This document shows, piece by piece, positions 33,949-38,946 of a stretch of 64,000 bases of DNA. This DNA comes from Onchidella celtica. Its lineage: Eukaryota; Mollusca; Gastropoda; Systellommatophora; Onchidiidae. Below the pieces are notes generated by a model. The model saw nothing but the letters and a program-made list of their open reading frames with translations, made no database searches and was not told the DNA's origin. The stretch is from positions 11,630,192-11,694,191 of the forward strand of contig OZ007581.1 in assembly GCA_963931925.1 (NCBI GenBank), in the 5' to 3' direction. A program made the position numbers and the translations under genes. Positions within the stretch are counted from its first letter, which is position 1. Every line of letters starts with the position of its first letter.

Positions 33949-36900
33949 TCAGTTGAAAGCATTCCACAGAAAGAACAAGCCACACATTGCCACACTGAGG
34001 AGACCGACGGAATGTTCAATGGTGCTGCCAGAACATTTCCCTGTGTGGATAATCAGTGTACCTCATTATACATATAGTGGGAATAGGATGATGGACACAC
34101 ATATTAAAAGTACACATACATATATTAAAAAAAGGGGGTATGCATACATAAATTCATTTAGAAACAACTATTTTTTTTGAAAGCATACACATATATCTAT
34201 TATAAATATATATATATAATAGTGACCTTTGTTCCCAATAAGCTCGAATTTGGCATGTAAAAGTGAACTTTCGTGGCAGGTCATTCAATTGCGACCAAAG
34301 AACAATTCGCAACATACGGAAATTATCGAACTCTTAAATCGCAAGAGCTTTTAGAAGACATGTTACGAATGGGATACACCGCGACGTGTGCGTTCAAGCA
34401 AATACTTCTCGGTGCGCCATGAATCTTGCCATGTAGGTATGGAATTTTAATCTTTGCATTCTGCTCTGTTTGTAAATTCCATTCATCTCATTGTCACTGA
34501 ACCATTTAAACGCCAGTTCATAGGAATGGATTTCATGTCGACTCATAAATTAATAGCTCAAGGACATAACACGCTTTTACAATGACCTGGTGATGTACAC
34601 TGAAGTCAGTAATTCAGCAGAATGTCACTGTAATGACACGCGTTCCTTGGATTGTTGCAAAGGGCCATTCATCATTTTTTCCATTTCCCAGTTCTTCTGG
34701 AATTTGTAACATAGGTTCTTGCGTTGTTCCTGCCTTACACGGTACTTTGCAACGTTTATTCGTACGCTGTTTTTGCTAACACTGGGGTTTCAAACACATA
34801 TATTTTATAACTTACCTGTAGATGTGATATTCTGGACTTTCTCCATTCTCTGCTGACCTGTAAAACTATTTGTAAGATCTGGGAGGTAATTCACTGTACA
34901 TTTGTATGTGCCAGCATCACAAGAATTAGCGTCAGGCACATGCAAAATAATAAACACAGCCCTGTTGTTTGCGCCACTTCCTGCCGCAGTGAAGGTGATG
35001 GCCCATTGTCTTCCAGAGGGAATGTTCTGTGGTATGGGGAAGAAACAAATGAAAGCCAAGTGGCCGGTGCTTTTAAACTGAATTTTCGATTATCAAATCT
35101 TAAGTGACTTTGTTCTACATTTTCACCACATCTATGGATTTTATCAATAGCTAAATAGATAGGTAGACAGACAAACAAATAGCTAGCTAGCTAAATAGGT
35201 AGATAGATAGATAGATAGATAGATAGATAGATAGATAGACAGACAGATAGATAGATAGATAGATAGATAGATAGATAGATAGATAGATAGATAGATAGAT
35301 AGATAGATAGACAGACAGATAGATAGATAGATAGATAGATAGATAGATAGATAGATAGATAGATAGATAGATAGATAGATAGATAGATAGATAGATAGAT
35401 AGATAGACAGATAGATAGATAGACAGATAGATAGATAGATAGATAGATAGATAGATAGATAGATAGATAGATAGATAGATAGATAGATAGATAGATAGAT
35501 AGATAGATAGATAGATAGATAGATAGATAGATTTACCTCGGTTTCCGTATCTGAAGCACATGTCGAGTACTGAGCTATCGGCGTAAACGAGTTTTGTGAT
35601 GGTAACATTCTCGAGAGCTCAACACGAGATACATATTGGGCTCTAAGTGACACTCCTACAATATCAGCATGACATGTCACTGTGAAGTTTCCTCCTTCTT
35701 CAATAACTGTAATGTCTACAATGTCTTGCTGGCTTCTCACTGTTAAAAGAGACAAGAAATTAGATGTTCACATATTTAAATGTTCATCAGCCCAGCAGTT
35801 CACACACTTGGAAATCATAATCTTTGATGCGATGAGCAAGTGGTTGTAAAACTCGATCAAATTTGCCAGACAATATGACTTAAAGACTATGTCCGGTTTC
35901 TTTTTCACACCAGTAGGGTAACAGATTCAATCAACATCTGGGAGAGGATGTCGCTCTGTTTCATTTGTACACTTTTCACTGCGGCGCTTGAATTACATTT
36001 GTAAATGTTTCACTTCGTGGGCGCATAAAGTAAGGGTTTCAGTAGCCTTGACAACAGCATCCGCTGATCTCGGTGATTTTACGAAAAATGACATATTTTT
36101 ATGAATTTTTAGCACGAATTAGTGCGACGCCAATACTATGACATAATATATGGTTATTTTCTGAATCAAACATTGTCTGAGACTTTTTCTTCATCTTTTC
36201 AGAGTAAAAAATATTTGATGTTGACATGGAATGTAAAAATATATCAATGCAGTGTTGTGTGCATTTCTGCGTGCTGGGCCAAGGGCTGTTAATTTAAATG
36301 ATAATGGCGATTGGTGAATTAAAAAATTTGCTTTTTTTTTAAATTTCGCTGTCACGACTTTGGGATAATCGACATCAACAGAGCATGAATAAAATAACAA
36401 CAAAAAAAGGCTGAGGTCTAGTTTACCGAAATACCAGCCAGGTATAAGCGCACTCCTTCGAGAAAGCAATTGAAAATAGATTAAAATACAACATAAATTT
36501 GTTCTCATTTTCTAATGTCTGTTTGAAACGGATTTGACTTTCGGAATGTCACCGACAGGATAACGTTTTATTCGTCCGAGAGCTTTTGAAAAGACTTTGC
36601 GATTCTATGCAGTAGGCATGTAGAACTTGTGACGGATAGAAATGTCATAATTCACCTTGACGTCATAAACACCCTTCTGGGACAATGATTTTCATATCCA
36701 CCCCACACAAAAACTCGTTGGGGAGGGGGGGGGGGTACCAACGCTACATACAAACCTTCGAAACATGCTTCCAAAGCCAGCTGGCCTCTGATCTTCGATA
36801 GTGCCTCAAAGTCGTTGACATTGAATACAAGAAATGGGTCAGAGGCGATCGCCTTCAGCTCAGTCTCATCGACGCCGTCACCAACACCGACTGCGATAAC

Positions 36901-38946
36901 GATTGCTCCGGTGTTGTGCAGGATGCCTGCTTGAGCCTGAGTTCTCCCTCCTGGTTAGATGGATCATTAAGGTGATGGAAGGATGGGTGAATGGGAGGAT
37001 GGATGAATGAATAGATGGATGAATGGATGGATGAATAGACTGATGGATGTATGTATGTATGAGTGGACGGATAGCTGGCTGAATGGATCGATGGATGGAC
37101 GGATGAATGGACTGATGCATACATGCATGGTGGGTGGGTGGATGGATGAATGGATGTATGGATGGATGGATAGATGGATGGATAGATGGATAGATGGATG
37201 GATGGATGGATGGATGGATTTCATGAGAAGGATCTTGAGGACTCACTGTCGTCAGAATTGCCGTCTGTGACGACTATGACAATTTTAGGAACACCATTTC
37301 GAGCTCCATTCCGACTTGTGAGGGCAACTGTTCGGGCCAAACTCAGAGCTCCTGCTGTGTTCGTCCCGCCAACAGAACGTGGTAGTTTGGTGACGGCCTG
37401 GAATACCGGAAAGGGGCACCATGTTTTAATCTAAGTCTAATAAAAAATATGCATCTATTAGATTAAAAGTACCCTCAAAGAAATCATTTGTTACCAGTAA
37501 GTTCGAAAACTATGCAACGGCTGGAACTCGTCTCAAAGTAGTGAAATTTCATTGAAGACGAAATAGGTTACTTCTTTGACAGGTCAGTGTTTTGTGAATC
37601 AGAAAATAAAGATTGTTATACCTGTAGTACGTCGGTATTGGTAAGATGTTCAGTGAAGTCAAAAATAACATTTGCGATCGCACTGTAGACAATGGCGGAG
37701 AAATGAATCTTGTCCGGGCCAACAGTAAACAATCTTGTCACATTAGATGCAAAGTTTACTTCATCGGCATACTCCTTGTCGTTGATGCTTCCAGAAGAGT
37801 CCAGAATAAACAGAATATCAGCCCTCCCCTCACACAATAGATTTTGTGTGTTCTGTGGTGGAGGAGTAGAGTTTCCTGGAAATGCATGCAATATGGTCAT
37901 GTGATGTACGTTTTACCCATCAGAACTGTAGGCATTGGCCATTCTGCTTGAACGGGTACTGATATGTACCACGTCTGTTAACCAAGCTGTGGTATGGTGC
38001 TTTATTGTTGTCGATTATTTCATTAAACATGATCTAATCTGATTGATAAGATGCAGTCTGTTATCTGTGTGTATGTTTGTGCATTTTTTGGGGGGGGGGG
38101 TTGAGAGAGTGAGGGTCAGAGAGTGAGAGAGGAGGAAGGAAGAGAGAGAGAGAGAGAGAGAGAGAAAGAGAAAGAGAGAGAGAGAGAGAGAGAGAGAGAG
38201 AGAGAGAGAGAGAGCGGGCAATATTCTTAGTAATTTATATTAATAATAATAATAATAATGATGAAGATCATTTATATAGCGCCTAATCCAAACGAGTTTG
38301 CCCTAGGCGCTTTACAGAAAGTCTTGTTCTCTCCATTTGCATCTCTCTCACTCTCTCTTTCTTTCTCTCATCCTCTTTCTCTCTCTCACTCTCTCCATCT
38401 CTATCTCAGAGCAGATTGTAACGCAGCCTATTAGGCGCAGTTCACAACTCGCAACAGTTCACAACTTGTATTCTAAAGTATTATAATATTATTTGAATAT
38501 AAATTATATAATATTTATTTAATAGTGAATTATAAATTTTCGTTGGTGATAATGGGGAGGGGGGGGGGGGTGATAGAGATACATTTTAATCTATTAATTT
38601 TAATTTCTGCCCACGGGCCCTCCGATTTTTTTCGTCCTTATCCGAGAAGACTAGGTACTCGATCCAACCCCCCAATAGGATCAGGGACACGAAAATATGA
38701 GAAAAATCCCAATTTCCAACATGCCTGCACAGCCCGGGTTTTGAACCCGGGACCCTTGACATGAGAGGCGAGAACCTTGCCTCTAGACCACCTTGTCCCC
38801 ATTAGCGTTTCCTAGGAAATTAATGGCCAGTTTTTCCCATAACTTCACACTTATTCACGAACTGACTCACCCATGACCTTGTCCCTGCCTATGAGAGCCA
38901 GGACAAGAAGAATGCCCAAAACGTAGTAGGTCTGACCACGGTCCAT
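33949..38946 (-). CDS. Gene B: GPI-anchored (predicted) VWA-Ig surface protein (7 exons, 393 aa)
   Basis: Exons on the minus strand: 38946-38871, 37875-37622, 37397-37247, 36950-36756, 35739-35537, 35026-34816, 34040-33949. All junctions are GT-AG, phases 1,0,1,1,0,1, and the total of 1182 bp is exactly 394 codons. Residues 1-20 form a signal peptide ([20 protein letters not shown]). Residues 44-223 are a VWA domain with a full MIDAS: DSSGS at 51-55, Thr122 in GGTNT and Asp155 in TDG. Cys40 and Cys223 bracket it. Residues 230-360 form one Ig-like fold with Cys248 and Cys336 in DAGTYKC, plus Cys286 and Cys329. The end (366-393) is CSGS, a short spacer and the hydrophobic [19 protein letters not shown], typical of a GPI signal. 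VWA domains bind ligands through a divalent cation. The Ig part resembles molluscan lectin-type immune proteins. A role in adhesion or recognition is inference. An AG at 38953-38954 (minus strand) suggests an upstream 5' UTR exon. Confidence 0.88.
35199..35532. repeat. (GATA)n microsatellite abutting a splice donor of gene B
   Basis: About 334 bp of GATA with a few GACA units fill most of intron 5 next to the donor at 35536-35535. On the transcript strand the repeat starts about five bases into the intron. Confidence 0.97.
36955..37219. repeat. (GGAT/GAAT)n repeat filling intron 3 of gene B
   Basis: The 296-bp intron (36951-37246) is made almost wholly of GGAT, GAAT and GTAT units, leaving about 27 bp of non-repeat sequence next to the donor. 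Confidence 0.95.
38139..38214. repeat. (GA)n microsatellite in intron 1 of gene B
   Basis: A 76-bp GA run preceded by a G-run at 38090-38101. Confidence 0.97.
38245..38330 (-). repeat. LINE 3' tail fragment
   Basis: The reverse complement reads GTAAAGCGCCTAGGG then GGCGCTATATAAATGAT and a TTATTA tail, very like the 3' end of the CR1-like element at 29630-29676. Confidence 0.55.
38610..38802 (-). mobile_element. tRNA-derived SINE, copy 4 (head only, best-preserved tRNA part)
   Basis: In reverse complement it begins GGACAAGGTGGTCTAGAGGC (A box) and has CCCGGGTTCAAAACCCGGG (B box), with a CTC at the anticodon position. This is closest to tRNA-Glu. The core follows and the 3' module is missing. 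It lies in intron 1 of gene B. Confidence 0.85.

Follow-up and report, generated by a model that had tools for sequence, protein, structure and literature searches.

What kind of protein is encoded by the seven-exon gene at positions 33949-38946 (minus strand) of a 64,000-nucleotide window from the gastropod Onchidella celtica (assembly GCA_963931925.1, contig OZ007581.1), and from which parts was it assembled? The window corresponds to C15:11630192-11694191 of a 1.14 Gb genome in 43 contigs. As judged from sequence, the gene at this locus is probably functional; its predicted product, a protein of the secretory pathway, combines a von Willebrand factor type A (VWA) domain bearing a metal ion-dependent adhesion site (MIDAS), a V-like immunoglobulin (Ig) domain and a C-terminal tail of glycosylphosphatidylinositol (GPI) type, and belongs to a small family apparently built by shuffling. 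A MIDAS-dependent surface protein of adhesion or recognition would be the best reading of this architecture, with recognition receptor as one possible role.

The seven exons are separated by six introns, all GT..AG, and splice to a coding sequence (CDS) of 1182 nt, equivalent to 393 amino acids plus the stop codon that completes the 394 codons of the original prediction. The MIDAS residues that had been placed at 51, 53, 55, 122 and 155 are all found in the translation (D51, S53, S55, T122 and D155), and the proposed signal peptide and hydrophobic tail after a CSGS site agree with a hydrophobic N-terminus encoded by exon 1 and a hydrophobic C-terminus free of K or R. The elements of the gene, with positions in the window, are as follows.

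38871-38946, minus strand: exon 1, start codon and signal-peptide-like segment (residues 1-25, hydrophobic at 6-20), ending in phase 1
37622-37875, minus strand: exon 2, residues 26-110, beginning of the VWA domain (Pfam VWA), with C40
37787-37801, minus strand: MIDAS motif DSSGS (D51, S53, S55) in the spliced translation
37247-37397, minus strand: exon 3, residues 111-160 (Pfam VWA), with MIDAS residues T122 and D155
36756-36950, minus strand: exon 4, end of the VWA domain (Pfam VWA), with C223
35537-35739, minus strand: exon 5, first half of the Ig domain, with C248 and C286
35147-35532, no strand assigned: microsatellite of ATAG units, starting about 5 nt into intron 5 from the exon 5 donor
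34816-35026, minus strand: exon 6, second half of the Ig domain, with C329 and the DAGTYKC motif that contains C336
34805-34807, minus strand: in-frame stop codon directly inside intron 6, where intron retention would yield a soluble protein ending in TGKL
33949-34040, minus strand: exon 7, CSGS region, hydrophobic GPI-type tail and stop codon
33964-34011, minus strand: C-terminal hydrophobic segment (residues 374-389, by hydropathy of the translation), with no K or R after it

The protein has cysteines at positions 40, 223, 248, 286, 329, 336, 366 and 383 and N-glycosylation sequons at 27, 70, 243 and 359. Pfam recognizes the VWA domain across exons 2-4 (2.3e-38), and its MIDAS elements DxSxS, T and D are present here and complete in all four copies of the gene that have these exons. 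The Ig region falls below the Pfam cut-offs, with an Ig_2 match of 6.4e-5 (23.5 bits, where 27 are required) and a weaker V-set match (0.011) whose alignment crosses the exon 5/6 junction; however, a related Ig domain (Ig1) from an array of neighboring genes, 43% identical to it, exceeds its cut-off (28.7 bits against 21.8), which upholds the call of one Ig-like domain with DAGTYKC. The B and F strand cysteines, C248 and C336, are in place as a predicted pair, together with the DxGxYxC motif of V-like Ig domains. Because C286 occurs in this copy only, among the four aligned, a second Ig disulfide does not appear to be a family trait.

At the top of the PDB matches stand collagen VI and proximal thread matrix protein 1 (PTMP1), with MIC2 and integrin alpha-M chains next, both among the best 60 of 114 matches and among the best 60 of 150 obtained with a profile that included a three-VWA gene described below. 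Collagen VI and PTMP1, the latter a mussel byssus protein, offer the closest VWA domains of solved structure among the matches listed; unlike the single-VWA protein studied here, they are matrix proteins with repeated VWA domains, and we know of no Ig domain of the present kind or membrane anchor in either. Hemicentin, in which VWA and Ig domains also occur within one protein, belongs to the matrix as well and is very large, its Ig domains numbering in the dozens.

Genome-wide searches were carried out with exons 2, 5, 6 and 7, giving counts that include this copy and are lower bounds, while exons 1, 3 and 4 were sought in selected fetched stretches. At E<=0.001, exon 2 has 107 matches (150 of 159 candidates scored): this copy, four close copies at 87, 83, 83 and 71%, and more distant relatives clustered at C15 23.2-23.5 Mb and on C3, C4 and C16, plus a few single places. 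Exons 5 and 6 have 24 matches (of 26 candidates) and 25 matches (of 32), respectively. Intact seven-exon models, with conserved GT/AG sites and phases, were found at this locus, on C16 (14.11 Mb) and on C9 (45.27 Mb). A copy at C15:11.71, about 46 kb away, has exons 1-6 but no exon 7 that could be found over the 12.5 kb beyond exon 6, as far as 11.698 Mb; another, at C15:9.84, consists of exons 1, 2, 6 and 7 and lacks exons 3-5. The gene is a member of a small dispersed family of three intact members and two incomplete copies, and the gene model, the domains and these paralogues together support the compact single-VWA, single-Ig protein with GPI-type tail that had been proposed. Five stretches of viral contigs matched a pattern, none of which encodes a relative. 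A mollusc-type haemocyanin domain has 33 matches in the genome and none in 14 control genomes, in keeping with a mollusc, and ORFs of FREP type point to a gastropod as likely.

By their sequence features alone, without paralogues, exons 1 and 7 would be only suggestive. With filters that were set after the data had been seen, and with window stretches that include the gene's own region, similar tail exons turned up in 8 of these 250 stretches and in 71 of 2000 simulated stretches; for similar signal exons the counts were 6 of 250 and 19 of 2000. Both exons, which had no homology support beforehand, are now accepted because paralogues carry them: exon 7 is present at four places in the genome (all four candidates, this copy included), 67-100% identical, equal in exon length and stopping at the same position, and an exon 1 homologue with identical donor phase is present in all five copies. 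Since the intron bases adjoining the exons are also alike between copies, the coding claim rests on the kept frames, the shared stop position and a whole-CDS ratio of nonsynonymous to synonymous substitution rates (dN/dS) below 1. An acceptor-like TTTCTCTTGCATCTCAG, whose last base lies 6 nt upstream of the ATG, retains its core in four of the five copies, so that a non-coding 5' exon likely precedes coding exon 1 and the transcript may have eight exons.

Both halves of the protein have relatives on the same contig. Among the VWA-only relatives retrieved at length, the closest is a gene at C15:23.39 Mb. It carries a signal exon that shares 50% identity with exon 1, and Cys-rich exons separate its three VWA units; the family's VWA domain is 59-63% identical to the first of these units (R1), as opposed to 44-49% to R2 and R3, making R1 apparently its closest relative of those compared (a small VWA tree was weakly supported and not used). 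In this gene (L028, L030), which lies within the VWA cluster, the first VWA domain has G at the position of the first MIDAS Asp. Its Cys-rich modules look like chitin-binding ChtBD2 modules by eye, an assignment that was rejected as Pfam returned only sub-threshold zinc-finger matches for the two joined exon pairs submitted.

The Ig exon pair, which is bounded by phase-1 introns, aligns with Ig1 of five genes of the Ig array at an hhalign probability of 99.9 (blastp identity 43-47%, best 5e-36), and the array, located at C15 11.0-11.4 and 11.76-11.82 Mb with further matches at 9.58-9.61 Mb, flanks the locus. The array genes (L017-L022 and L027; C15 11.2-11.8 Mb) contain a second, exon-split Ig-like region in four of the six stretches compared, whose V-set match is under the cut-off; beyond it, the comparison is dominated by intron conservation and low complexity. 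We infer that the gene arose by exon shuffling through phase-1 introns: its 5' block, comprising the signal exon and the three VWA exons, would be akin to the first VWA unit of the C15:23.39 gene, the Ig exon pair would have been drawn from the array on either side of the locus, and the tail exon would have been added. The clustered VWA and Ig gene groups are in turn candidates for mollusc recognition or matrix genes.

Features consistent with a GPI-type anchor include the signal-like exon, the small-residue CSGS region and the hydrophobic end, with the protein stopping four residues past the hydrophobic segment. Thus anchored, the protein would be located on the outer leaflet. Where a MIDAS is complete, as in integrin I domains and the anthrax toxin receptors (ANTXRs), ligand binding is expected to depend on cations; by analogy, the VWA domain would use a divalent cation to bind its ligand, of the matrix or foreign, at an acidic group, and the Ig domain would act as a stalk or a second contact. 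Because the protein has no cytosolic part, signaling, if any, would proceed via a partner.

Variation among copies bears on this model. In the six pairs formed by four aligned copies, dN/dS ranges over 0.41-0.72 for the whole CDS, 0.38-0.89 for the VWA domain alone, 0.22-0.66 for the Ig domain and 0.61-2.07 for the 26-codon signal segment; for stalk plus tail, the three pairs among intact genes give 0.22-0.55. Variable positions amount to 25 of 39 at the MIDAS rim versus 40 of 145 elsewhere in the VWA domain (Fisher p 3.5e-5, post hoc), and pooled pN/pS is 0.86 at the rim, 0.46 in the remaining VWA domain and 0.42 in the Ig domain. As the surroundings of the MIDAS differ among copies to a greater degree than the remaining VWA domain, the copies may be tuned to different ligands; rim variability fits such ligand-driven divergence or relaxed loops, and the data do not separate the two. 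A fuller scenario, rather doubtful as a whole, would have lineage-specific GPI-anchored VWA-Ig recognition receptors emerge from a shuffle of VWA and Ig arrays on one chromosome, with a diversifying metal face, a more fixed Ig stalk and a soluble decoy produced by retention of intron 6.

Several observations weigh against a shuffled, anchored and ligand-tuned receptor. The rim comparison is post hoc and involves four sequences, loops outvary cores in most proteins, and just three of the six pairs have a rim dN higher than dS. Relaxed constraint would also explain the VWA dN/dS of 0.81-0.89 in three of the six pairs and the values above 1 for the signal segment in three of six. The direction of shuffling is deduced solely from present-day copies, and the searches for exons 3 and 4 covered selected stretches. 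Finally, the GPI-type tail was judged from hydropathy and by eye, so that the protein might instead have a short tail anchor or occur as a secreted isoform.

This last point leads to a secreted protein associated with matrix or shell, used in the manner of Pif/BMSP, for which the tail exon would be optional and the form terminated in intron 6 the main product. Although unlikely, such a protein would suit the kinship of the VWA domain with a multi-VWA gene on C15 that likewise has a signal exon, the absence of a detectable exon 7 within 12.5 kb of exon 6 in the C15:11.71 copy and the stop codon right after the exon 6 donor, which is found in four of the five copies and missing in that on C16. 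This stop would allow a soluble form and may reflect shared ancestry only. Against secretion as the main outcome stand the exon 6 donor, CAG|GTAAGT, which is close to the splice donor consensus, the open tail exon conserved in four copies, and the dN/dS of stalk and tail given above. The Pif/BMSP proteins, including gastropod PifG, resemble the present one as VWA proteins subject to lineage-specific domain shuffling, according to PMC11291548. They differ from it in having chitin-binding, CCP or laminin G domains instead of an Ig domain and GPI-type tail. Pfam finds no CBM_14 domain in the protein, a trait shared with PifG members, as the same source describes PifG of Lottia without CBM_14 and LG domains.

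A second alternative, very unlikely on present evidence, is an immune recognition protein of VIgL/FREP type with a VWA domain in the lectin's place. The original prediction had likewise related the Ig part to FREP-like proteins. In both cases a V-like Ig domain is joined to a second extracellular domain of recognition type, the genome contains many fibrinogen-domain matches, and the Ig domain is barely seen by automated tools, as reported for mollusc VIgL Ig domains in PMC9334734. The present protein is distinguished by its VWA domain in place of a lectin, its predicted membrane anchor and an Ig profile without significant match: hhalign probabilities against FREP-type IgSF1 and IgSF2 of the same genome are 5.5 and 5.8, compared with 95.6 for the IgSF1 versus IgSF2 control, where the FREP side consists of thin profiles from two open reading frames (ORFs), L032 and L033, one with a truncated first Ig. 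Pfam gives only VWA-type and Ig-type families for the protein, with no fibrinogen or lectin domain, and the 125 fibrinogen matches, obtained with 150 of the 177 candidates scored, all lie outside C15 9.5-11.9 Mb, the region around the Ig array. Within these limits a FREP relation was rejected, the Ig domain grouping instead with the C15 array. Because the second Ig of the array genes also scores just 11.2 against the gene's Ig, it is only close kinship that is unsupported, and remote kinship is possible. Each of the FREP-type ORFs L032 and L033 (C16:33.745 and 32.436 Mb) is long, runs in a single frame and encodes a fibrinogen domain; inspection by eye adds two Ig regions, the first of which is cut short in L032, and both ORFs contain coiled-coil-like repeats of a 14-residue unit, strongest in L032.

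That the gene is a decaying or unexpressed duplicate, as the two incomplete copies out of five and the fast evolution of some pairs might suggest, is scarcely compatible with the open frame, GT/AG sites and MIDAS that are intact both here and in two more full-length copies, and is accordingly very improbable.

As for the ANTXRs, their VWA-then-Ig order, documented in PMC4773787 and PMC6694455, answers the earlier remark that no described family with this order was known, although the gene itself fails the tests for an ANTXR. Like the vertebrate receptors ANTXR1 (TEM8) and ANTXR2 (CMG2), it encodes a MIDAS-bearing VWA domain followed by one Ig-like domain and a (here predicted) membrane anchor; moreover, the spacing of D51/S53/S55/T122/D155 and of cysteines 40 and 223 is nearly equal to that of ANTXR2, whose MIDAS comprises D50/S52/S54/T118/D148 and whose VWA domain is closed by the disulfide C39-C218 (PMC4773787). 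In contrast to the ANTXRs, which have a transmembrane segment and a tail of 148-222 residues, the chain ends in a hydrophobic GPI-type segment, and a long cytosolic tail with an actin-interacting segment is not present in the translation. The Ig domain is of another type, with a DxGxYxC motif and no match to Anth_Ig (PF05587) up to the limit of E=10 (HMMER filters drop most matches above about 0.1); a genome search for Anth_Ig at E<=0.1 gave no match, and as the 14 control genomes were also silent, absence from the genome is not established. No ANTXR chain occurs among the best 60 of 114 PDB matches, nor among the best 60 of 150. Membership was rejected on these grounds, within the limits stated, and a mollusc ANTXR/TEM8/CMG2 protein, that is a matrix-binding VWA-Ig receptor whose tail was replaced by a GPI signal, is highly improbable given that the Ig domain also groups with the local Ig family. 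The gene may instead exemplify a VWA-Ig surface protein reached by exon shuffling, apparently independently of the ANTXRs, with the likely donors still on the same chromosome. No described mollusc VWA-Ig-GPI protein turned up in the literature searched, seen in part and with most subscription journals outside its coverage.

Elsewhere in the window, remains of a Harbinger-like transposon occupy 50392-52292, with a MADF DNA-binding ORF on the plus strand (Pfam 4.8e-14) and a DDE_Tnp_4 ORF on the minus strand (1.2e-28), and Tc1/mariner-IS630-like pieces lie at 47357-48617 on the minus strand, where matches to HTH_33, HTH_Tnp_Tc3_2, HTH_Tnp_IS630 and DDE_3 are weak and all under the Pfam cut-offs. 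A 288-codon ORF at 28648-29514 resembles by eye the 3' part of a long interspersed element (LINE) reverse transcriptase, with no Pfam match at E<=0.01. A dispersed repeat, about 81% alike between its occurrences, is found at 38608-38800 (in intron 1), 8435-8597, 9639-9839 and 15463-15650, one stretch of it having, by eye, the look of a tRNA-derived short interspersed element (SINE). Three minisatellites are located at 8911-9346 (a 73-mer repeated 6 times, 97% matches), 11039-11224 (a 31-mer, 6 times, 98%) and 57676-58158 (a 66-mer, 7.3 times, 90%).

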